Source of the DNA: Jannaschia sp. W003
GTDB lineage: Bacteria > Pseudomonadota > Alphaproteobacteria > Rhodobacterales > Rhodobacteraceae
Assembly: GCF_025144335.1 (NCBI RefSeq)
Contig: NZ_CP083539.1
Location: 1,737,501 to 1,801,500 of the forward strand
DNA: 64,000 nt
Direction of reading: 5' to 3'
The position numbers were made by a program, and so were the translations under genes. The notes under the pieces were generated by a model. It was given only the letters and a program-made list of their open reading frames with translations, ran no database searches and was not told the origin of the DNA. Positions 21,997-37,672 of the stretch are shown in pieces (the stretch's first letter is position 1; each line of letters starts with the position of its first letter).

Positions 21997-22071
21997 TGGG
22001 GTGTAGCCAAGCGGTAAGGCAGCGGTTTTTGGTACCGTGTACCGTAGGTTCGAATCCTACCACCCCAGCCA
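21997..22071 (+). tRNA. tRNA-Gln (anticodon TTG)
   Basis: The 75-base gene has acceptor TGGGGTG pairing with CACCCCA, a D arm starting TAGCCAAGCGGTAAGGC, anticodon stem GCGGT/ACCGT around TTTTGGT (anticodon TTG), a T arm GTAGGTTCGAATCCTAC, discriminator G and encoded CCA. Its 3' half is the likely integration site of the element that follows, since a tyrosine integrase reading frame begins about 90 bases downstream. Confidence 0.96.
22045..22071 (+). other. Putative attL (3' end of tRNA-Gln)
   Basis: The T arm and acceptor end of tRNA-Gln are immediately upstream of a tyrosine integrase gene, the usual arrangement when an element has integrated at a tRNA 3' end. I searched by eye for a second copy of TTCGAATCCTACCACCCC downstream and found none in the window, so the partner attR is not identified. 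Confidence 0.5.
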
Positions 22072-22160: not shown

Positions 22161-24701
22161 GTGATACAGCGTGGCACACAGGACGCACGCCTCGCCGTGC
22201 TGCGCGCCCACCGCGAGATCGCCGCCGAGGCCCTCCGCGCACCCGGCCCGCGTGCCGCCTCCGCCGGCCCCCACACCGTGCGCCGCGGCCGCGTGTTCCA
22301 CTTCGCCCGCCGCCTCTCGGCGCCCGCCGAAAAAAAATTGCAGAAAAAATTTCTGCGCCTCTCGCTACGCACCGATCTCCCCGTCTCAGCGATGCATCGG
22401 GCTCTCCTGGTCCGGTCCTACGCTGCACGAGCGGAGCGAGATCTCGTGAACGGACAGATCACCCCGAACCAGGCCAAGGCCCTTCTCGGCGAGGGCGCGC
22501 GCCAGATTATCGCTGCCATGATCGATGAGCAGGAGGCGGCCGCGGGCCGCTCCGATGCCGAAATCGACGCCCGCATCGAGACGCTGAAGGCAGAAGCGCA
22601 GTCGCTGGGCCGTGCAGCACGGCGCAATCGCTTCGATGCGCTGCGCCCGTGGCTCGACGCCGCCGCCCGCGGGGCCGGCGTCGCGCTTCCCGAAGACCTG
22701 CCCACCGAGCTCGGCCGCCAGGCCGCGCAGGTGCGCCGCGACCTGCTGGAGGCCGAAGCCGAGGTCGAGGACGGCGCCGCCGTGGAAGCTGCGTGCACGC
22801 CCGTCGTCGAGCGGTTCAGCGAGGCGACCGTCGCCGTGTTCGCCCAGGCGCCTGTGACGCTCTCGACGGCCATCGCGCGGACCTACGCGCTCTACCCGAC
22901 CCGCTCCATGCACGGGAACATCAAGATCGCCGGCGATCTGCTCATCGCGTGGTTCGGCGACGTTCCGGTCTGCGCCATCGACAAGGAACAGCTTCTCGCG
23001 TTCCTCGGCTGGGCCATCCGTCTTCCGAAGACGCATGGAAAGGCCCATGGTCGCGCGCATGGCGGGGCAGGCCACGTCGTCACGAAGGACGAGGAGATCG
23101 CGCGCGCCGACGCCAGGGATGCCGCGGTCATCGCCGAGATTTCCGCCATGGATTGCTCGGACGCCGAGAAGCGCGCGCTGCTCGCCGAGCGCCTCGTGCC
23201 TCGCCTGACGTTCCAGACGATCAAGCGCTACCGCGACAGCGTGAACCGCGTCTGGAAGGCTGCGGCCGACCTCGGTGCGACCGGTCTCGCCCCGGTGCCG
23301 GGTTATGCCGAAGCCGAGCGTCACATCGAGGCGGCCATGCCGGTCGATCCGCTGCACATCCACAAGACGCAGCCGAAGGCGCGTCAGCCGTGGTCCGAGG
23401 AGCGGCTCGTGGCGCTGTTCAACTCGCCCATCTATCGGGGCTGCGCCTCGCCGCACCGCCGCTGGAAGGCTGGCCCGCTGATCATTCGCGATGCGCTCTA
23501 CTGGGTGCCGCTGATCGTCGCCACGCTCGGAACGCGGGTCACCGAGGTTCTCGAACTGCGCCGCGACGACCTCATCCACCGCAACGGCGTCTACTGCCTC
23601 CGCATCGGCGCCACCGCCGAGAAGCGGGTAAAGACCGAGGACAGTGTCCGCGTCGTGCCCGTGCCGCAGCTCCTTCTCGACTTCGGCCTTGTGGAGTGGG
23701 TGCGGGATCTCGCAGACGATCACGGCCCGCTGCTGTTCCCCGAGATCGCCGCGCGGGCCGAGAAGCGCAGTCTCGCCGATGCATTCGGCAAGATCCGCCT
23801 GCAGATCTGGCGCCGGCTCGGCATCGCCGATCACGACGAGGACTTCTACGCGCTGCGCAAGACGCTGCAGACGATGCTCGAGGCGAACGATGTCTCCGAA
23901 GGGCGCCGGCAGGCGATCGCGGGCCACCGCAACGGCAAGATCATCAATCGCCACTACACTGCCTTCCATGCCCGTTCGCTCAAGGGCGATCTCGACAAGG
24001 CCCGCTATGAGCTGACGCTCGTCTGGGACGCCGCGAACGGCTTCCCGGTGATCGGACACTGCGGGCTTTCCGATCGCATTCCCGAGACCGCGATCGATGT
24101 GGAACTCGCCGACGAAGGCGTCGCGGCCGTGACCGTCGACACCGAGGGCGAGCGCGCGACCTGCCGCTTCGACCACGATGCCTCTCCGAGCGAGATCGCG
24201 CAGGCGATGCCGAAATCCGTTCGGGCAAAGGTTGCGGCCGATGCGATCCGACTGCCCACGCGGGGGCGCAAGCGGGACTTGTGCGAGGCCATTGCCGCTC
24301 AGGCGAAGGCGATCGACGCCGAGCCTCTGGTGGCTCGACTTTCGCGCGAGCTGGGCGAACCCATCGCCCAGGTGAGGCCGCAGTCGTCAGACGGTTTTGG
24401 CACTGCCGGGCGCGTTGTGATCTCGGCCAATGTCGGACAGACAGTCCAGGAACTGCCGCAGTCCGTCCCCGACCTTGACGGCGCTACCGCGAGCGAGCGG
24501 ACGACACGTGCGGCGTTCGAACCAATCGCCTCGGCCCCTTCGAAATCCGTGAAGAGGGCGAAACCTTTGCCCAAGAAGCGGAGCCGCCTCCGCAATGGCG
24601 CACTGGAGGCGTTGGAACCGAATGCGGAGGGCGTGCGGCTATCGGTCGGGGAAGGCGCGGCGGTGCGACGAACGCGATCGTCGCAGTATCGCCGAGCTTG
24701 A
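22161..24701 (+). CDS. Large site-specific tyrosine integrase (DUF6538 type)
   Basis: A tyrosine recombinase of about 846 aa. The N-terminus holds a short beta-hairpin domain (VRRGRVFHFARRL) seen in DUF6538 integrases. A SAM-like core-binding region follows, and the catalytic domain has R459 in LGTRVTEVLELRR, H589 and nucleophile Y599 in GHRNGKIINRHY. The HxxR motif reads YALR (Y563, R566), so its histidine is replaced. After the catalytic domain there are about 230 extra residues of unknown role. No ATG precedes the first domain; the GTG at 22161 is one of several possible starts (22149 is another). It is likely to integrate the element at tRNA-Gln. Confidence 0.85.
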   Translation: MIQRGTQDARLAVLRAHREIAAEALRAPGPRAASAGPHTVRRGRVFHFARRLSAPAEKKLQKKFLRLSLRTDLPVSAMHRALLVRSYAARAERDLVNGQITPNQAKALLGEGARQIIAAMIDEQEAAAGRSDAEIDARIETLKAEAQSLGRAARRNRFDALRPWLDAAARGAGVALPEDLPTELGRQAAQVRRDLLEAEAEVEDGAAVEAACTPVVERFSEATVAVFAQAPVTLSTAIARTYALYPTRSMHGNIKIAGDLLIAWFGDVPVCAIDKEQLLAFLGWAIRLPKTHGKAHGRAHGGAGHVVTKDEEIARADARDAAVIAEISAMDCSDAEKRALLAERLVPRLTFQTIKRYRDSVNRVWKAAADLGATGLAPVPGYAEAERHIEAAMPVDPLHIHKTQPKARQPWSEERLVALFNSPIYRGCASPHRRWKAGPLIIRDALYWVPLIVATLGTRVTEVLELRRDDLIHRNGVYCLRIGATAEKRVKTEDSVRVVPVPQLLLDFGLVEWVRDLADDHGPLLFPEIAARAEKRSLADAFGKIRLQIWRRLGIADHDEDFYALRKTLQTMLEANDVSEGRRQAIAGHRNGKIINRHYTAFHARSLKGDLDKARYELTLVWDAANGFPVIGHCGLSDRIPETAIDVELADEGVAAVTVDTEGERATCRFDHDASPSEIAQAMPKSVRAKVAADAIRLPTRGRKRDLCEAIAAQAKAIDAEPLVARLSRELGEPIAQVRPQSSDGFGTAGRVVISANVGQTVQELPQSVPDLDGATASERTTRAAFEPIASAPSKSVKRAKPLPKKRSRLRNGALEALEPNAEGVRLSVGEGAAVRRTRSSQYRRA

Positions 24702-24773: not shown

Positions 24774-25895
24774 TCAAGATCCTGCCGGGGTCCAGTCCGG
24801 AAAACCCATTCGGCGGGCAATTCCGAACAGCGGGGTGTAGGTCTCGCGGAAGGCCGAGCGAAACGTCGTCTCGTCGCTTCCCACGGGGTCGAACCCGAGG
24901 TCGGCGGCATAGTCGTCGCGCCACCGCCGCAGGGATGCCTGATGGCGACCGAGGCGATCCGCAGCATGCCAGAGTGCCGCGTGACGGCAGGCAAGGGCAT
25001 CCACGGCCGCTTCGGGGGGCAACCCGTCGCGCTTGCTCGCGTTTACGGCGGGCGCAATCGGGGAGAGGTTCCAGAACCGATCGTGTCCGGTGAAGGCGTG
25101 GGGCAGGAAGTGATCGACCGCGAAGAGGTCGGGCGTCACCGAAGCCCGCGAGAACACGCAAGTGCCTCCGCCGCGCAAGTGGGCCGACCAGACCCGACGC
25201 TCTTCGGTGAGGGACGCGCGTTCGAATGCGGGTCGAACCTTTGCCAGAAGGCTCGTTGCGTGGGGGTTCCGCCGTTCAAGATACGAGAGCCAGACCGCGT
25301 CTGACCACCCATCGAAGATGGGTCCGTAGCGCTCGATAGCCGCGACCCAGTCGGGATGCACGACGATGCGGTCCGGCTCGATGCGAAACAGCGGACGCCT
25401 GTCATCGAAAAGCGCGCGTGACGCGTATGCGATCGCCCGATCGCGCTTCCCGTCGGGCAGAGAGCCGACCTCGCCCTCGAACCAAGGGCGCAAAAGACGT
25501 GTCGGAACATACCGGAGCAGGGAACGTGCAGGTCCCTCTGAAAGCTGCGTGGCCGGGACATGAGCGAGGTAGTCGAGGACATCCCCCGGTCGCATCCGCA
25601 ACGCGGTGGGATCTTCGATCAGTGTGGAGAGGTGTTTCACCGCCATGTCCTGGGAACCAAGCGCGAGGCGATAGTGGAATGCAGGCCACCACGCCTCGGC
25701 GAGCATTCCCCGGAGCAGGTCGAGGAACAATGGCTCGGTATCGCCTGCGCGCACCCGTGCCAGCAACGCGCGCAGGAACAGATGCTTGTAGCTGTTCGTC
25801 ACCGCCCGCATCGACTGAACGAGGGGAGCCGTGTCGATCCCGAGTTCGGGGAAGGGCTTAAGGTCGGGCACCACGACCGGAGTTAAATGCGGCAT
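24774..25895 (-). CDS. HNH endonuclease domain protein
   Basis: A 373-aa protein with an HNH nuclease core near the C-terminus: VDHFLPHAF (D261, H262), then WNLSPIAPAVNASKRD. The N-terminal part contains TNSYKHLFLRALL, like the SYK-type helical segment found before HNH domains in some defence and mobile-element nucleases. The start is uncertain. The ATG at 25895 has GAGGG close by, and a GTG at 26042 would overlap the upstream gene by 25 bases. It is the last gene of the minus-strand run. The likely role is DNA cleavage, in defence or element maintenance; this is inference from the domain only. Confidence 0.7.
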   Translation of the reverse strand: MPHLTPVVVPDLKPFPELGIDTAPLVQSMRAVTNSYKHLFLRALLARVRAGDTEPLFLDLLRGMLAEAWWPAFHYRLALGSQDMAVKHLSTLIEDPTALRMRPGDVLDYLAHVPATQLSEGPARSLLRYVPTRLLRPWFEGEVGSLPDGKRDRAIAYASRALFDDRRPLFRIEPDRIVVHPDWVAAIERYGPIFDGWSDAVWLSYLERRNPHATSLLAKVRPAFERASLTEERRVWSAHLRGGGTCVFSRASVTPDLFAVDHFLPHAFTGHDRFWNLSPIAPAVNASKRDGLPPEAAVDALACRHAALWHAADRLGRHQASLRRWRDDYAADLGFDPVGSDETTFRSAFRETYTPLFGIARRMGFPDWTPAGS

Positions 25896-26017
25896 GCCCT
25901 CGGGTGCCAGAGAAAGGTTGCGATCCGGTAAGGTCCGGCGAGAGGGCTTCGCGATCAGGGGTCGAGGCTGACAGCCCTTCGCTCGGACCGGCAGAACCGG
26001 TCCGAGCTTCGGCGCGA

Positions 26018-26428
26018 TCACCGGCCTGGCAATGCGGCGCACCTCTCATGGCGTCGCCCCCTCGAACGAAGCAGGTTGTCGAGGTTCCGGGCCCGTGTTT
26101 CGAAGGTCGCACCCAGATAGCAGATCGCGTTCTCGTCCGTCCCCGGACCGTGGGCATCTCCGACGAACCTCCGGATGGGCATCCTCGCAAGGCAGTCGCG
26201 AATGTCCCAGGCGATGCGAGCGGCCTCGGCGATCACCTCGGCGTCCGGCATCTCTTCGGTGCCGCGGTGAAGCTGATGGGCCTGACGCAGCAACGACATC
26301 AGTCTCGTTTGGGGGTAGGCTGAAGCGACATTCGCGATCTGTTCAGCATGGGCGTCCGTCACAGCAGCGAACTGCGCGAATTCGAGGTCGATTGCTTCCG
26401 GCGCGAGTATGCTCGTGACCTTGTTCAT
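26018..26428 (-). CDS. 136-aa protein of unknown function paired with HNH nuclease
   Basis: An alpha-helical protein with a good ribosome site (GGGAGGGG, 6 bases before the ATG at 26428). It contains long amphipathic helices (LEFAQFAAVTDAHAEQIANV; EVIAEAARIAWDIRDCLARM) and a basic tail (LLRSRGRRHERC). No known family or enzyme motif is apparent. It lies directly upstream of the HNH nuclease gene; with the longer HNH start the two overlap. A regulator or partner of the nuclease is possible. Confidence 0.6.
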   Translation of the reverse strand: MNKVTSILAPEAIDLEFAQFAAVTDAHAEQIANVASAYPQTRLMSLLRQAHQLHRGTEEMPDAEVIAEAARIAWDIRDCLARMPIRRFVGDAHGPGTDENAICYLGATFETRARNLDNLLRSRGRRHERCAALPGR

Positions 26429-26696
26429 CGACGCCCCTCCCGCCGCATCGGTCGCCGAGGCCGGCGAGGCTTGACCTTCGGGTATGGGGCCTGATGGCGA
26501 TGGGGCTTGGCCGTGCGACGACGGATGTGCCGAGGTTGCGCTCTTCTCATGGTTGGGCTTCCGGTCTGACTGCCCGGCTCCCACGCCGCCGGTAGGGTCG
26601 GCGCGTGCGGGCGTCACCCGGACCGCCCGCGCGCGCCGACATTCTGGCGCCCTGCAGATCATACGTTGTTGAAGCGTGCTCGATCCTCAGACGTTT
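26429..26696. other. Non-coding gap in the recombinase-nuclease run
   Basis: A 268-bp gap between the second recombinase and the 136-aa gene. Both strands are open in some frames, but the translated sequence is Pro/Ser/Arg-rich without structure. It may hold a promoter for the last two genes, but no clear -35/-10 pair is visible. Confidence 0.4.
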
Positions 26697-28031
26697 TCAA
26701 CGGTGCCGTCGTAGCGGCGCCAGGGCTTCTTTTGCTTCGTTCCTCGCGGCGCGCAGGGCGTCGCGTCCTCGCCGCTGGTTTGCCTGCACGGAGGCGCGGG
26801 TTTGGTAGTGAAGGCGCGTGCGCTCCGACCGCTGGCCGCAGAGCGCGAGGGCGAGCCACACCTCCCGGTCGCCGGACACGTCGCGGACGTGATCGTGCCA
26901 GAGCGTGCGGACGATGTGGGCGCCGTGACCGGTGTGGCGCCGCCAGACCTTCGAGATCCAGTCGGCGCGCAGACCGGTCTTGCCGCCGTCGAGCGAGAAG
27001 ATCGGCGTTCCCTCCCGTTCGTCGTAGCCCGTCCACAGCTCACGTCCCGCCGCCGAAGCGTACACGAGCGCGTCGAGGAACGGCGTCGTCTCGGGCCACA
27101 GCGAAGGCATCTCGTAGTCCGCGCCTGTCTTGGACGTCCTGATGCTCACCGACCATCCGGTCGCGTCGCGCACGAGTTCGCGGCCCACGCGCAGGCGGTG
27201 CAGGTCGCCGATCCGGAGGGGGCAGTTCACGGCGAGCGCGAGCGCCGCAGCGTGAAGTTGTGCGATCGCCTCGGCGCGCGAGCCCGCCGGGGCGGATGCG
27301 CCCTCGCGCGCCAGATGCTCTGCGCTCTCGATGACCGCGCCGAGCGTGAGCGGACGCGCACGCAGGCGTCGATCCTTTACGCTGATCGTGCAAGCGGCCT
27401 TCTCGCCCTCTTGCCGCGCCCAGCTCGCGACTGTCTCGCACAACGACGTATGATCCCCCTGCCACGCGAGGAACCGCTCGATATGACGGAGTTGCAGTGC
27501 GACGCTGGCCGGGCGCAAACCCCGGTCCTTCGCGGCATTCCTCCACTCTCCGATGGCTCGCTTGTCGAGCCTGACGGGGACGTCTCGCTCGGCGCACTTT
27601 GCCGCCACGGCCCGCAGGACGTAGGCGATCCCTCGGAGCACGTGCGGAGCGGGCGGATCACGGCCCTCGATCCACAGACCGTCGTCGTCCAGCGCCCGCG
27701 CCGCTTCCATCTCGCGAAGCGTTCGGCGCCACGGCTCGGGCAGGGCTTCGAGGGGCACCGAATGCCGGGGAGCCGGCCCCCGTTGCCCGCCGCCTGGTTC
27801 GGGGCGGGTCTTGCGCTGCCGAAGCTCGCGCACCGCAAGGCGGACCACGCCGCAGTGATCCGGCTCTTCGGTGCATAGCGCCCGCAGGAGGCGTTCGAGC
27901 GTCGACAGGCGCCCGAACGCAAGGGCGTCCTCGACGGTCGGGTGGGGCACATGATCACTGCTCCCGCCGAGGTGATCCCTCCATCGCCCGATGAGGGCAG
28001 TCTGCGCGGGCGTGAGTGCAGGATCAGCCAT
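26697..28031 (-). CDS. Tyrosine recombinase B of an overlapping pair
   Basis: A 444-aa tyrosine recombinase. The catalytic residues are Arg in CPLRIGDLHRL, Lys in RTSKTGADYEMP, the HxxR motif HIVR (H372, R375) and nucleophile Tyr409 in TRLHYQT. The usual second His/Trp position reads CGQRS, with Gln400. The N-terminal half is helical and unlike ordinary phage integrases. The ATG at 28031 overlaps the stop codon of recombinase A in the sequence ATGGCTGA, so the two are made together. This implies a heteromeric or sequential recombination function. Confidence 0.78.
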   Translation of the reverse strand: MADPALTPAQTALIGRWRDHLGGSSDHVPHPTVEDALAFGRLSTLERLLRALCTEEPDHCGVVRLAVRELRQRKTRPEPGGGQRGPAPRHSVPLEALPEPWRRTLREMEAARALDDDGLWIEGRDPPAPHVLRGIAYVLRAVAAKCAERDVPVRLDKRAIGEWRNAAKDRGLRPASVALQLRHIERFLAWQGDHTSLCETVASWARQEGEKAACTISVKDRRLRARPLTLGAVIESAEHLAREGASAPAGSRAEAIAQLHAAALALAVNCPLRIGDLHRLRVGRELVRDATGWSVSIRTSKTGADYEMPSLWPETTPFLDALVYASAAGRELWTGYDEREGTPIFSLDGGKTGLRADWISKVWRRHTGHGAHIVRTLWHDHVRDVSGDREVWLALALCGQRSERTRLHYQTRASVQANQRRGRDALRAARNEAKEALAPLRRHR

Positions 28032-29871
28032 GGCTCCGTCCCTCCTCGAAGTGCTGGCCGCGGCGGTGGCGATGCACTTCGCGGCGCGCCGCCCGCAGAT
28101 GAGACCGTCCCGTTTCGCCGACGCGGCGCTCGTTGAGCCAGCCGTAGTATTTGCGCACCGTGTTCGCTCGGTCGCCGAGGACCTGCGCAGCCTCTTCCCA
28201 GGCGTTCGGATCGCGTGCGAGGATGTGGAACGCACACACGTGCCGTGCGAGGTGGATCGTCAGATCGAGCCCCACCGCCGCAACCCCGGCGTCGAACCGT
28301 GCGGCGAGGGTGGTGTCGTCGAGTGGGGCGTGGCTCTGGGGACCTGCGAAGAGGAAGTCGCTGTCCTGGGCGGGCTTGCCGTAGGGATGGTCCGTGATCA
28401 GCCGCGCCCGAACGTCGTCGACGAACCAGCGCAGGATCGGCATCGCCTCGTCGTCGCCCTCGATCTCGATCGGCCGCCGGTTCTTGACCGCCGTGCCATC
28501 GATGGAGAGGTGCGGCGCAGCGCCGAGGAGGTTCAGCTCGGCCTCGGGGCCATGGATGCGTAGACTGCGCAGGTTGCCCCTCCGAATGGGCGCGACGAGG
28601 AACAAGACGGCCGACATGGCGGCCGCCGTGCCGAGATCGAGCGCTCGCATCCGCTCGCGGCGTCTCAGCGGCTTGCCGGCGTCCCAGCGCGCGAGGATGC
28701 GAGTTGCCTCCCCCATGAGCGCCCACGGCATCCGATGCAGCGCCCGCTGCTGCGCCGGATCGCGGCCGTAGCGCTTGATCCAAGACAGATGGGCGGGCGA
28801 CATCTGCCACGTGGAAGGCGCCTTCCTCTTAAAATTCTTTCGAAGCTTGGTGAGCGCTTCACGCTCCTTCTCGTCCGCTCCGACGTGGGCGAAATAGATG
28901 AGCCGCTGCATGTCGCGCGAGAAGCTCGTGGCATCCTCTCGAAGCTCACCGCATTCGACCCGTGCCTTCCACGCGGTGTGGTAGGCCGCGAGGCCGGGGA
29001 TGGACAGGACATCGTTTAGCTCTGGCTCGGCGGGGAGGTAGCCTTTCGCGTCGAGCGCCGCGATCGCGCCGCGAACGGCGTCTTCGTAGCGATCGCGGCC
29101 ACGACCTTCGCGCTCGTCATCGTCCTCGTCCTCGCCGAGCGTTTCGCGCCGCAGCGCCATGCGTGCGTCGAACTGCGACCAGAGACGCCGCAGCCGCAGT
29201 GCATCGCGGCCATACGCCGCCGTCCGGCGCTTCGCCGGGGGCGGCAGGGCAGGGGCCCCGGAGGGGAGCAGGTGTCCGACGTCCGCGCGCGTGCGTCCGC
29301 ACTCGCAGAGGCGCGCGAACGACCGGAGACCGCACCGAAGCGTGCGCCTCAGCTTTCCCTGCGCGCCGTCGAAGATCCGCACCGCAGCGTCGTCGGTCAT
29401 TCCCACAGGTTCGATGCCGCGCGCCGAGGCGTGACGTGCCAGCGCGCCGATGCTTAGGTCCAGGTGAGGCGGCAGATGCCCGTCGTTGCCCATGGTATGC
29501 GCGGCGACGTAGGCAAGAAGCTCGTCCCACGCTGCGAGCCGCGCGGTCGGCTCCGCGGCGCGCGGCTTGTGGGCCTTTGCCAGAGCGGCCCGCACACGGC
29601 GGCGCCATTCCAGGAACTGTGCCTGATCGCGCAGTCCGGCGGCGATGGCGCCCTTGGCGTCCCGTCCACGACCCCAGCGGCGCTCGAAGTCATCGAGGTC
29701 CGCAGGGATGCGGTGCAGCGGCGTCCGGTAGACCGTCTGGCACCGTTTGATCTGGGGGCGGATCTGCGCCGCCGTCGTCTCGGTGTAGCCGAGGGCGGAC
29801 AGTGCTTGCAGAAGGTCGTCCATCGTGCGGATGGAGCGCGCACCGCGCCGGGCGGACTTTGCGTTAGACAT
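28024..29871 (-). CDS. Tyrosine recombinase A of an overlapping pair
   Basis: A 615-aa protein with a long N-terminal region (about 400 residues, including an acidic GEDEDDDERE stretch) followed by a tyrosine recombinase domain. The visible catalytic residues are Arg430/431 in PIRRGNLRSL, Lys in AVKNRRPIE, HLAR (H540, R543) and Tyr575/576 in KYYGW. The second His/Trp position reads LGDRA (Asp567). The ATG at 29871 has GGAG upstream. It follows the HTH gene by 62 bases and overlaps recombinase B. Its size and pairing do not match the tRNA-proximal integrase. Confidence 0.78.
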   Translation of the reverse strand: MSNAKSARRGARSIRTMDDLLQALSALGYTETTAAQIRPQIKRCQTVYRTPLHRIPADLDDFERRWGRGRDAKGAIAAGLRDQAQFLEWRRRVRAALAKAHKPRAAEPTARLAAWDELLAYVAAHTMGNDGHLPPHLDLSIGALARHASARGIEPVGMTDDAAVRIFDGAQGKLRRTLRCGLRSFARLCECGRTRADVGHLLPSGAPALPPPAKRRTAAYGRDALRLRRLWSQFDARMALRRETLGEDEDDDEREGRGRDRYEDAVRGAIAALDAKGYLPAEPELNDVLSIPGLAAYHTAWKARVECGELREDATSFSRDMQRLIYFAHVGADEKEREALTKLRKNFKRKAPSTWQMSPAHLSWIKRYGRDPAQQRALHRMPWALMGEATRILARWDAGKPLRRRERMRALDLGTAAAMSAVLFLVAPIRRGNLRSLRIHGPEAELNLLGAAPHLSIDGTAVKNRRPIEIEGDDEAMPILRWFVDDVRARLITDHPYGKPAQDSDFLFAGPQSHAPLDDTTLAARFDAGVAAVGLDLTIHLARHVCAFHILARDPNAWEEAAQVLGDRANTVRKYYGWLNERRVGETGRSHLRAARREVHRHRRGQHFEEGRSHG

Positions 29872-29933
29872 GTCGATCTCCGTTCGTCGAGCGGACGCCA
29901 TTCGCCCGCGCGTCCCGGGGCGAATGGCGGCCG

Positions 29934-30290
29934 TCAGACCTTCTCGAGCCAGTGTTCGAAGTCGCCCGTGCGCACCCGGCGAAGGCCGGGCGCGAGGGCC
30001 ACCGTCGGCAGGCGTCCCGCTGCGAGGTGGCGTCGCCAAGTTCGCGGCGATCGGCCCAGGGGGTCGGACGCGGCGCAGTCTGCGGCCGTGAGGAGCGGCG
30101 CGCGCAGCCGAGTGCGATCCATCGGATGGACGGAGGAGAGCCCCTCCACGGCCCACACGTCGTCCCACTCCCATCGCCGCCCGCCGCCGTGGGGGCGCGC
30201 GCCGCTCGCGCGCAGGAGCCGCCGTGCGGTGTCAGGGTGCACCGCCCAGTGGCGGGCGATGCGGGAAAGCGTCTCGGTTCTCAACTCCAT
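29934..30290 (-). CDS. Helix-turn-helix protein (excisionase/AlpA-like)
   Basis: A 118-aa protein with two short DNA-binding segments. The first (residues 6-45) is an HTH of the kind LSRIARHWAVHPDTARRLL followed by a wing. The second is MerR-like (LTAADCAASDPLGRSPRTWRRHL, then GLRRVRTGDFEHWLE). The start is fixed by AAGGAGA before the ATG at 30290. It is the first gene of the minus-strand recombinase run and begins 85 bases from the 27-bp inverted repeat, which it may bind. A role as excisionase or operon regulator is inferred from size and position. Confidence 0.65.
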   Translation of the reverse strand: MELRTETLSRIARHWAVHPDTARRLLRASGARPHGGGRRWEWDDVWAVEGLSSVHPMDRTRLRAPLLTAADCAASDPLGRSPRTWRRHLAAGRLPTVALAPGLRRVRTGDFEHWLEKV

Positions 30291-30374
30291 GGGCCATCTC
30301 CTTCTGGTCGGAAGGGAGTTAGGTCCCCGCGATGGCCGACGGAAAAATGCGTTGGCCGGCCCCCGGCGGCAGAG

Positions 30375-30433
30375 CGGCGGCACGGATGGACGGACGGCCC
30401 CTTAGGGGGGCCGTCCGTCCATCCGTGCCGCCG
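30375..30433. repeat. Perfect 27-bp inverted repeat between divergent genes
   Basis: The arm at 30375-30401 begins CGGCGGCACGGATGGACGGA, and its exact reverse complement occupies 30407-30433; only TTAGG (30402-30406) separates them. Each arm contains the short direct repeat GGACGGACGG. It lies between the HTH/recombinase run and the AAA ATPase gene. A terminator role is unlikely because both genes point away from it. An operator, recombination site or origin element is more plausible. Confidence 0.9.
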
Positions 30434-30498
30434 TCCGAACTTTCGTTTTGGTGTCCGGCGAGAAGGATCGATGTCCCTGTCAGAAAGGAGACAACGAC

Positions 30499-31614
30499 AT
30501 GTTTGACATACTGACGGAAGACACGGCGATGGACGGGATCGAGGCTGCGGGGAACAACCCTGCGCCGGTCCGCGCGCACGGTTTCCAGGCGGAAGCGCCA
30601 CTGCGCCGAGAGCGACGCTTGAAGAGCAGCTACACCGTCAAGGGGCTCCTTGGCGGCGCCGGCACGGTGTCGGTGCTGGTCGGTGCGCCGGGGAAGGGCA
30701 AGTCGACCGCGGCGATGGCGATTGCGGTTCGCGTCGCTGACGGCACGTCGGTCGGTCCGATGTTCGTCCGGCAAGGCGCCGTGATGTATCTGGCGTGCGA
30801 GGCCTACACGAGCACCGAGCGGCGACTGGAAGCCTGGCGCGACGAGGTGTGCGCGGACATCCCCGTCCACATCGCGAGGGGCAACCTGCACCTCGACGAC
30901 ACCCAGAGCGTTCTGCAATTCATCGCCTTCGCAGAAGGCTACGTCGCGAAGGGCGGCGAGACTCTGCAGCTCGTCGTCATCGACACGCTCGCCGCAGCGT
31001 TGTCGCCCGATGCCGACGAGAACCACGCCGGAACGATGGCCCTCGTTGCCGCCAACTTGCGACGGATCGCCGAGGAGCTGCGCGTCCACGTTCTCACCCT
31101 GCACCACCCCGCAAAGTCGGGCGGGGCCGGGGGGCGGGGAAGCTCGGCGCTGAACGGTGCGGTGGATACGACCCTCATCCTCGAGCGAGAGCCCAGCAAG
31201 CGCACGGCGCATATCAAGGCCGAGAAGCAACGCGATCTCGCCGACGACACCAAGCTTGCCATGGACCTCGAGCCCGTCGTCCTCGGGCGGGATCAGGAAG
31301 GAGATGAGGTGACGACCGTCCGGGCCGTGTGGCGTTGCCCTGATCCCTCTAAAGAAGATTCCGAGAAGAAGGCAGGGGCCGACAAGGAGTGGCGCTTCAA
31401 GGACCTCTCCGTGGTGATCTGGGTTTGCCTCCAAGCATCCTTGTCGCGACCCATGACCCCGGCGCAGATCGCAAGCCTGATCCCCGCGGAGGCGGAGTTC
31501 CGCGCGCCGTGGAAAAAGGAAACCTTGGAGCGCCATGTTCGCGATCTGCTTGGGCAGATGGAGAAGGACGGCGCGGTGTGTTGCGTGGGCAAGCAGTGGA
31601 AGCTCGCGACGTAG
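30499..31614 (+). CDS. RepA-like AAA ATPase (AAA_25 family)
   Basis: A 371-aa ATPase related to hexameric RepA helicases. It has Walker A GAPGKGKS (residues 62-69), Walker B in LQLVVIDTLAAAL, and a RecA-like motif LTLHHPAKSGGAGGRGSSAL where family members contact nucleotide and DNA. The C-terminal 80 residues look like a winged helix (TPAQIASLIPAEAEFRAPWKKETLERHVRDLL). AAAGGAG lies 9 bases before the ATG at 30499. It diverges from the recombinase run, across the inverted repeat. The likely role is replication or mobilisation of the excised element. Confidence 0.8.
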   Translation: MFDILTEDTAMDGIEAAGNNPAPVRAHGFQAEAPLRRERRLKSSYTVKGLLGGAGTVSVLVGAPGKGKSTAAMAIAVRVADGTSVGPMFVRQGAVMYLACEAYTSTERRLEAWRDEVCADIPVHIARGNLHLDDTQSVLQFIAFAEGYVAKGGETLQLVVIDTLAAALSPDADENHAGTMALVAANLRRIAEELRVHVLTLHHPAKSGGAGGRGSSALNGAVDTTLILEREPSKRTAHIKAEKQRDLADDTKLAMDLEPVVLGRDQEGDEVTTVRAVWRCPDPSKEDSEKKAGADKEWRFKDLSVVIWVCLQASLSRPMTPAQIASLIPAEAEFRAPWKKETLERHVRDLLGQMEKDGAVCCVGKQWKLAT

Positions 31615-36302: not shown

Positions 36303-36920
36303 ATGAACAGCCTCGTGGCGCTCGGCACGCTGGCGGCCTGGGGCTACTCCGCCGTCGCTCTCCTCCTGCCAGGGCGGTTCCCCGAGGGCACGCGCGCCGT
36401 CTACTTCGAGGCGGCCGCGGTGATCGTGACGCTGATCCTGCTTGGGCGCTGGCTCGAGGCGCGCGCCAAGGGCCGCACCGGAACTGCGATCGTGCGGTTG
36501 GTTGACCTTAGCCCGCGCACCGCGCTGCGGGTCCGGGACGGGCGCACCGAGGAAGTGCCGCTGGAAGCGGTGGTCGCGGGCGTGTCGGTGCTGATCGTGG
36601 CCTGCCCCTGCGCCATGGGCCTTGCCACGCCGACGTCGATCATGGTGGGCACCGGACGCGCTGCCGAGACGGGGGTGCTGTTCCGCCGCGGCGACGCGCT
36701 GCAGGCGCTGGGACAGGCCCGGGTGGTCGCCTTCGACAAGATCGGGACCCTCACCGTCGGGCGCCCCGAGCTGAACGCTCTGGCGCCCGCTCCGGGCGTG
36801 ACGCGCGCCCGTTCTGCCGGATGGACCTCCGACGTTGTCTCGGGCGGGGCCTGCATTCTCGATGCCAACTGCGGTGGCTGCGTGCACTGCCGCTCAACCG
36901 ACCCGTTCCCCCCGCGGTGA
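36303..36920 (+). pseudogene. Internally deleted copper-type P1B ATPase
   Basis: The reading frame joins two pieces of a copper ATPase. The first has MNSLVALGTLAAWGYS and [25 protein letters not shown], and breaks off after EEVPLEAVVAG. It is fused directly to VSVLIVACPCAMGLATPTSIM and the phosphorylation site. The actuator domain with its TGE loop is gone, and the phosphorylation motif reads DKIGTLT instead of DKTGTLT. The sequence then departs from the family after GRPEL, with no nucleotide-binding domain. It cannot be an active pump. An intact relative lies at 50804-53152. Confidence 0.85.
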
Positions 36921-37027
36921 TCTTTCACGTGGCCATGCACCACGACGGGGCCGGCCAGTGAAGCTCAGGGACTGTCGCCACAGACCTGCGGGCCGGTGGT
37001 CCACCAACTTGTCTCCGCTCGAACATT

Positions 37028-37039
37028 ACGTATATACGT
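37028..37039. promoter_or_regulatory. ACGTATATACGT palindrome upstream of the AbrB-Doc pair
   Basis: A perfect 12-bp palindrome, followed closely by GGTGTATATG. It lies 23 bases before the antitoxin ATG in otherwise GC-rich DNA. AbrB-type antitoxins usually bind such sites to repress their own operon, so this is a probable operator and promoter region. Confidence 0.55.
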
Positions 37040-37061
37040 CGGTGTATATGAGGGACTTGCG

Positions 37062-37286
37062 ATGATCGAGACCAAGATCCGCCGCGTCGGCAACTCCGCG
37101 GTCATGACGCTGACCACTGAGATGCTCGCGATGCTCGATGCCAAGGAGGGCGACACCCTCTTCGTCGTGCGCGGCGACGACGGCACCCTTCGCGTGATGG
37201 CCCACGACCCTTCCGTGGCTGAGGCGTTGGCCGCGGCCGAGGTGGTGATGGACGAGAACCGCGACCTCCTGCAGGCGCTCGCTTGA
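37062..37286 (+). CDS. AbrB/MazE-type antitoxin
   Basis: A 74-aa protein with a SpoVT/AbrB swapped-hairpin DNA-binding domain (IRRVGNSAVMTLTTEMLAML, then KEGDTLFVV) and an acidic C-terminal tail that should wrap the toxin (VAEALAAAEVVMDENRDLLQAL). The ATG at 37062 is preceded by AGGGA. The stop codon overlaps the TTG start of the Doc toxin gene, so both proteins are made from one message. A palindrome upstream is a likely operator. Confidence 0.85.
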   Translation: MIETKIRRVGNSAVMTLTTEMLAMLDAKEGDTLFVVRGDDGTLRVMAHDPSVAEALAAAEVVMDENRDLLQALA

Positions 37287-37672
37287 CGGCGCCCATCTGG
37301 GTGCCCCTCGCCGCCGTCGTCGTGATCCACGACCGCCAGATCGCCCGCCACGGCGGGGCGCCCGGCCTGCGCGACCGGGGGCTTCTGGAGATGGGCTGTG
37401 CGCGCGCCGTGAACCTCGCGGCCTACGACGATGCGGCGGGCTTGGCAGCGATCGCCGCGGCCTACGCGTTCGGAATTGCCAAGGCCCATGCGTTCGTGGA
37501 CGGCAACAAGCGCACCGCCTTCGTGACGGCCCTCACCTTTCTGCGCCTCAACGGCCATGCCTTCCGTCCCGACCCCATAGAGGGGGTGCGAGTGATGGAA
37601 GGTCTGGCGGCGGGGGAGGTGAGCGAGGCGGACTTCGCCCGGTGGCTGGCAGCGGGGATGCGCCCGATCTGA
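37283..37672 (+). CDS. doc: Doc-family (Fic) toxin
   Basis: A 129-aa death-on-curing toxin of the Fic/Doc fold. The catalytic motif is HAFVDGNKRTAF, matching HxFx(D/N)GNKR. Known Doc proteins phosphorylate elongation factor Tu and stop translation. The TTG at 37283 overlaps the antitoxin stop (TTGA). The pairing of Doc with an AbrB-type rather than a Phd-type antitoxin is common enough in proteobacteria but differs from the P1 prototype. The likely role is stabilisation of the accessory region. Confidence 0.9.
   Translation: MTAPIWVPLAAVVVIHDRQIARHGGAPGLRDRGLLEMGCARAVNLAAYDDAAGLAAIAAAYAFGIAKAHAFVDGNKRTAFVTALTFLRLNGHAFRPDPIEGVRVMEGLAAGEVSEADFARWLAAGMRPI

Follow-up and report, generated by a model that had tools for sequence, protein, structure and literature searches.

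A conserved operon of a helix-turn-helix protein and two tyrosine recombinases on plasmids and tRNA-linked islands of Rhodobacterales

The window analyzed here is a stretch of 64,000 nt from Jannaschia sp. W003 (Rhodobacterales; contig NZ_CP083539.1, positions 1,737,501 to 1,801,500), and coordinates are window positions unless a locus number is given with them. It contains a run of five genes on the minus strand encoding a helix-turn-helix (HTH) protein, two tyrosine recombinases (A, the large one, and B), a small protein (P0003), and an HNH-nuclease-like protein. The open reading frames (ORFs) lie where the initial annotation of this DNA had placed them, A and B overlap by 8 nt, with the A stop and the B start in ATGGCTGA, and an AAA ATPase faces the run across a long palindrome, all as that annotation described. 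The first three genes, with a small protein after B in about a third of loci, form an operon that is conserved among plasmids and tRNA-linked islands of Rhodobacterales. In the window, its features are as follows.

29934 to 30290, minus strand: HTH protein P0005, which opens the core operon, with an HTH_17 match (Pfam, 5.9e-09) and weak excisionase-like matches
29892 to 29933, no strand: inverted repeat in the gap between HTH and A, with 16-nt arms (94% paired) and a 10-nt center; candidate recombination core site or RNA hairpin
28024 to 29871, minus strand: large tyrosine recombinase A (P0001), 615 aa, assigned by catalytic residues, fold, and distribution
26697 to 28031, minus strand: second tyrosine recombinase B (P0002), 444 aa, assigned by catalytic residues and Cre fold
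26018 to 26428, minus strand: small protein P0003, 136 aa, located where relatives have the small protein F16

A single-sequence search of a large protein set returned at least 7 relatives of A. With a family alignment (E ≤ 1e-10, own genome included), A was matched in 51 of the 292 genomes of the order, representing 41 of 112 genera, and in 17 of 385 genomes drawn from the class. The best match had an E value of <1e-40 in 31 of the genomes of the order and in 2 of those from the class; weaker matches may be other tyrosine recombinases. Among the same-genus genomes listed, nine have no match to A. Relatives of A and of B were each found in 15 of 72,556 plasmid records, and all of these carriers are Rhodobacterales by genus or record name. 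On the plasmids inspected, the family is largely annotated as “hypothetical protein.” A phage origin was rejected, since two pattern-based scans of viral contigs gave no confirmed relative of A and no match to B was present in 50,697 phage records.

Neighborhoods of A were collected from plasmids, from six close relatives, and from 40 places in the genome set. The count leaves out exact or near duplicates (L003, L004, L005, L130, L133, and L153) and a locus with a broken A gene (L006), while L082 and L084 (93.5%) and L134 and L135 (84%) were retained as separate rows. This gives 59 locus rows but 58 distinct A genes, L131 and L141 having yielded the same one. For 53 of these 58 genes, B is the same-strand neighbor of A; an HTH gene lies upstream of A for 50, and F16 follows B for 20. 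Five loci were scored as lacking B (L063, L067, L087, L090, and L094); in L063 and L094 the contig runs out, and the B gene of L067 failed the position filter. The window's own HTH gene, seen by inspection, is one of the eight missed by the filter; L154 borders the end of its contig, and in L156 an HTH gene follows B but lies on the opposite strand. Conservation is weaker in the most distant loci (L087 to L095), where the second recombinase mostly matched the A profile. Genes of a large serine recombinase family (by eye) lie near the distant A-like gene and second recombinase in L087, L089, L091, L092, and L095. A remote third family that matches the A profile occurs near A-B in six loci (L065, L071, L074, L081, L083, and L094), and its member in L094 has no Pfam integrase match. 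The gene after B on a Thioclava plasmid (L131:17458-18036) is SMC_ScpB-like (Pfam, 1.2e-27), and a gene annotated as ScpB lies ~8 kb from the module in L137.

The conserved unit, HTH and A with B coupled to A, is smaller than the set of six genes in the window, which includes the following features outside the operon.

24774 to 26042, minus strand: HNH-nuclease-like protein P0004, 422 aa, GTG start, with an HNH_4 match (Pfam, 6.1e-05); outside the conserved core
30375 to 30433, no strand: perfect palindrome with two 27-bp arms and 5 nt between them, in the HTH-AAA_25 intergenic region
30499 to 31614, plus strand: AAA_25 (RepA/DnaB-like) ATPase (Pfam, 3.5e-28), divergent from HTH

It is extremely improbable that HTH, A, B, P0003, HNH, and AAA_25 together make one functional unit. 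The six genes are contiguous in the window, and an AAA_25 relative is again divergent from HTH in L155. However, that is the only other locus among the 59 with an AAA_25 relative, and relatives of HNH and P0003 were found in the window only (E ≤ 0.01; HMMER single-sequence searches, which remote relatives could escape). The expectation that the neighborhood would recur therefore holds for HTH-A-B, which keeps its gene order in many genomes although the flanks differ, but not for the other three genes. Homology of P0003 to F16 or to the second small protein of L154 was not detected. The long palindrome, which the initial annotation had noted, was rejected as a hallmark of the family, since none of comparable arm length was found upstream of HTH in the other loci scanned; instead, it is the repeat between HTH and A that recurs, in a minority of loci. 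A 12-bp motif of the palindrome (CGGATGGACGGA, 30383 to 30394) is also found inside the HTH gene (30123 to 30134).

Both A and B are tyrosine recombinases with mostly intact catalytic residues. The window sequences retain the Arg, Lys, HxxR, and Tyr that had been attributed to them, namely, R430, K463, H540xxR543, and Y576 in A and R273, K301, H372xxR375, and Y409 in B. Across the A family (n = 45), the first Arg is present in 44 proteins, the Lys, His, and second Arg in all 45, and the Tyr in all 43 without a gap at that position. In the B family (n = 35), the first Arg and the Lys are present in all 35, the second Arg in 34 of 34, and the Tyr in 33 of 34. The usual form of the motif at the second His is LGH, which reads LGD in A and CGQ in B of the window. 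The replacement of the second His/Trp by Asp or Gln is thus correct for the window, but it extends unequally to the families: among the 43 A proteins scored there, 37 have D, N, or C and 6 have H, whereas in B it is H in 23 of 34 and Q in 11 of 34. These counts make Asp/Asn typical of A and Gln a minority state of B.

Neither protein has a Pfam Phage_integrase match. The single match of A in Pfam is a subthreshold one to RuvA_C (0.0065), and B and P0003 have none at all. PHROGs gave a weak integrase match for A (3.8e-4), B was without a match in NCBIfam, PHROGs, and PADLOC, and no NCBIfam transposase or integrase model fits either recombinase. In the structural comparison, the model of B (mean pLDDT, 89.5) had 32 Foldseek hits with E values of <1e-3, all of which were Cre or the Cre-derived Tre (E values down to 1.4e-6), while its sequence profile found no recombinase. 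The model of A (mean pLDDT, 87.9) gave a Foldseek probability of 1.0 to XerA, XerH/difH, and Cre, and its sequence profile matches XerC-like and XerD chains (best, 1.8e-10). The structure search that had been suggested for these proteins predicts a Cre-like fold for B and, more weakly, a Xer/Cre-like fold for A. The RepQ/RepY/RepW replicases were set aside, as they are not recombinases.

The gap between HTH and A contains an inverted repeat in the window (p about 0.007). At this position, 10 of 50 loci have a repeat at p ≤ 0.05, compared with 2 and 3 of 50 at two control positions; at p ≤ 0.1, the numbers are 15 compared with 4 and 6. Fisher values for enrichment are 9e-5 upstream of A and 0.97 and 0.89 at the controls. 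A TT-N6..9-AA center with at least 5 paired bases occurs in 11 of 54 loci and in 40 of 3,091 control windows; both the repeat position and this pattern were chosen after inspection of the same loci, so that the figures are optimistic. A CTTT..GAAG-type center appears by eye to be common to several divergent loci. A single Limimaricola strain has two plasmids that each contain, at one place, a 116-bp stretch with the repeat; the two stretches are 97.4% identical, compared with 84% for the whole segment that the plasmids share. The window repeat has no second copy in its own genome at up to 3 mismatches, and a second copy near the module was rejected: across 22 loci, the best other match to the arms reached 12 to 16 of 20 bases, with no formal null for comparison. 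Nor are phased repeats immediately before A a general feature (3 of 55 loci compared with 15 of 711 control segments). We infer that the inverted repeat is a candidate core site of a two-subunit system resembling Cre/lox or Xer/dif.

The same position would also suit an RNA hairpin that tunes the expression of A-B relative to HTH, with A and B acting at another site. The repeat lies just 5′ of the A start, and some loci have long stems: the arms are 21 bp and perfect in L079, and they span 25 positions in L152 and 28 in L155, with mismatches. L157 and L154 have no inverted repeat of note. On the other hand, the CTTT..GAAG-type centers and the post hoc enrichment of TT..AA suggest that the sequence itself is recognized. 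The data here fit a protein site and a hairpin alike; as a full account of the repeat and of where A and B act, the hairpin seems unlikely.

The histories of the two recombinase genes are closely linked. In a mirror-tree comparison, the distance matrices of A and B correlate with r = 0.94 (51 loci), whereas the values are 0.78 for A-HTH and 0.80 for B-HTH (44 loci); none of 1,000 permutations reached any of the three. Since the relatedness of the carriers feeds all three correlations, the difference counts more than the values. Between the islands L079 and L084, DNA identity is 50 to 65% across A-B, whereas the flanks are mostly 72 to 95% identical up to the HTH gene and 82 to 95% identical from the downstream small genes on. 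A of L079 is 62% identical to that of L132, from a Roseivivax plasmid, and 47% identical to that of L084, while its HTH protein shows the reverse (76% to L084 and 52% to L132). For L062 and L131, the identities are 85% for A, 80% for B, and 40% for HTH. From these comparisons, the A-B pair appears to have been swapped between carriers in two cases, its kinship departing from that of HTH. Because identity falls gradually on the HTH side of the L079/L084 pair, ordinary homologous recombination or fast divergence may also account for that case.

Apparent exchange of A-B between otherwise similar islands is also what might be expected of a device for competition or defense among mobile elements, and AbiE, multiubiquitin/ThiF, and SAVED genes are neighbors of the module on some plasmids. 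Genes of these types are common on plasmids in general. The genome-defense role raised in the initial annotation found no backing in PADLOC, where the only matches were weak ones to the HTH protein (0.0043) and the ATPase (0.0061 and 0.017) and none were to A, B, P0003, or HNH; a defense system was rejected on this basis. We consider a competition or defense device very unlikely.

Besides Rhodobacterales plasmids, the operon occupies tRNA islands, where it lies close to the integrase end. In the window, that end comprises two features.

21997 to 22071, plus strand: tRNA-Gln at the island end
22392 to 24701, plus strand: classical-type island integrase, 769 aa, convergent with the module (Phage_integrase, 4.5e-06; 27.0 bits against a cutoff of 27.1)

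Relatives of this integrase occur in seven other rows among the 59 loci, one of them marginal. In L058, L068, L082, and L084, such a relative lies at a tRNA-Asn, and in L086 it lies at a tRNA-Gln; L077 has a different integrase and an HTH gene between B and a tRNA-Phe. That the integrases beside A-B differ indicates that A-B is compatible with several of them and is probably not itself the main integrase of the islands. L154 leaves room for the contrary: F16 ends ~0.9 kb from the 3′ end of a tRNA-Phe (L154:3913-4810), and the interval has only small ORFs, one of them HTH-like by eye and on the other strand, with no integrase-sized ORF; the other end of that island lies beyond the contig.

The window island may be larger than 42 kb or consist of several insertions (22000 to 64000), a region in which G+C is ~0.60 to 0.73. 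At 58 to 64 kb, matches are limited to short stretches in 4 of 19 other same-genus genomes. A search for the far end of the island with the 3′ end of the tRNA-Gln gave, besides the tRNA itself, one match with 2 mismatches ~0.36 Mb away. At 36303 to 37672, a shortened metal P-type ATPase ORF is followed by an antitoxin/Doc-like toxin pair (by eye). Upstream of the module, some loci have iteron-like arrays of ~4 to 6 direct repeats with a period of 21 to 23 bp, several with a GGG..TGCGTC or GCGACC core, that could be replication or binding arrays. Their positions are as follows.

L134:12077-12180, iteron-like array
L135:11573-11679, iteron-like array
L137:8752-8852, iteron-like array
L058:7256-7383, iteron-like array
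L094:2976-3071, iteron-like array
L071:14655-14756, iteron-like array
L138:1489-1580, iteron-like array

A close rival of the Cre/lox- or Xer/dif-like reading, though a somewhat doubtful one, is that A and B together with the small protein serve as the transposition or integration machinery of an element of their own, like those of SE, GInt, or Tn554, which would recombine attL with attR through a circular intermediate and have one terminus just upstream of A. The layout of a large recombinase, an ordinary tyrosine recombinase, and a small protein is shared with SE and Tn554 as described (PMC10214605), and it partly resembles GInt (PMC5385486). Shared HTH-A-B segments also have unrelated flanks, both on the two Limimaricola plasmids (84% over 4.2 kb) and on Thioclava plasmids (89% over 6.3 kb). 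However, the segment edges inspected coincide with gene ends or insertion sequences or lie close to them, apart from one that is unclear, and neither terminal repeats nor a second site copy was recognized at the segments and loci inspected. A search for empty sites in plasmids gave one left-flank match, which ended before the module, with insertion sequences next in the other plasmid; no circles, empty sites, or element ends were seen. Furthermore, the HTH gene is conserved even though it lies outside the repeat, the visible tRNA ends are usually adjoined by a separate integrase, and the window operon holds only two recombinases.

HTH-A-B is by composition not an RIT trio, a GInt, or an SE; the initial annotation had set it apart from RIT trios and Tn554. 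SE and GInt were compared with it by the papers' descriptions rather than by sequence. SE are strand-biased circularizing integrative elements with the order intA, tfp, intB, srap, 13- to 19-bp imperfect inverted terminal repeats, and a 6-bp footprint, and SE blocks are reported in Gammaproteobacteria only, with none found in Alphaproteobacteria (PMC10214605). Like HTH-A-B, they have an operon that joins a small accessory gene to two catalytic tyrosine recombinases (PMC10214605); in HTH-A-B, however, there is no gene between A and B, the HTH gene comes first, and no ends were found. The intA-tfp-intB-srap order was absent from the window and from the 13 junctions printed, in all of which A and B are adjacent. 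GInt has three integrase-type genes (ginABC) plus ginD and flanking imperfect direct repeats of 10 to 17 nt, and alphaproteobacterial gin operons are among those reported (PMC5385486). It resembles HTH-A-B in its recombinase operon, the small last gene of some loci, and its variable neighborhood, but here there are two recombinase-type genes instead of three, and several loci lie beside a separate tRNA integrase. RIT elements also have several recombinases in one operon, three adjacent ones as opposed to two. Tn554 (tnpA, tnpB, tnpC) is set apart by description, since HTH-A-B has an HTH gene upstream and no target or ends were found; its gene order and sizes reportedly differ as well, the large recombinase being first in HTH-A-B. 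Judged by titles and the beginnings of abstracts in open-license PMC text, no paper on the HTH-A-B operon was found.

The closest functional analogs may instead be Cre/lox and Xer/dif, given the Cre fold of B, the Xer-like A, and the one inverted repeat beside the gene, with the differences that HTH-A-B has two unlike subunits and an HTH partner, that its activity is putative, and that the repeat is not significant in most loci. We tentatively favor a heteromeric A+B recombinase that acts at the inverted repeat for carriers that circulate in circular form. A and B would assemble jointly on the repeat that immediately precedes the A gene, assisted by the HTH protein in an accessory or directionality role, and would recombine two copies of the site that meet in multimers of the circular form, such as a plasmid dimer or a dimer of an excised island. 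Insertion of the island would be left to the separate integrase, and site specificity would shift when carriers exchange their A-B pair.

Several observations weigh against such a recombinase. No inverted repeat at p ≤ 0.1 was found in 35 of 50 loci, and the long arms of L079, L152, and L155 exceed what recombinase arms need and fit an RNA hairpin. The occurrence of the same site on two plasmids of one Limimaricola strain would let the plasmids fuse. The His of HxxR is missing in 8 of 35 B proteins (present in 27), every Foldseek E value of A is >1e-3, and its query-length TM-scores are 0.21 to 0.32. The proposed role in multimer resolution is one that we infer.

A stronger version of the proposal, that this is a previously undescribed two-subunit Cre-like system whose recombinases and repeat specificity are exchanged as a matched cassette between Rhodobacterales plasmids and islands, is attractive but has to be regarded as doubtful. 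If true, the matched cassette would give each carrier its own private recombination site. Multirecombinase operons such as those of Tn554, RIT, GInt, and SE are known, while the need for unlike recombinases is poorly understood. A family that is common in one bacterial order, with an adjacent candidate site and apparent natural exchanges of the pair, makes the two-recombinase question testable, and it could provide a possible new heteromeric site-specific recombinase tool.

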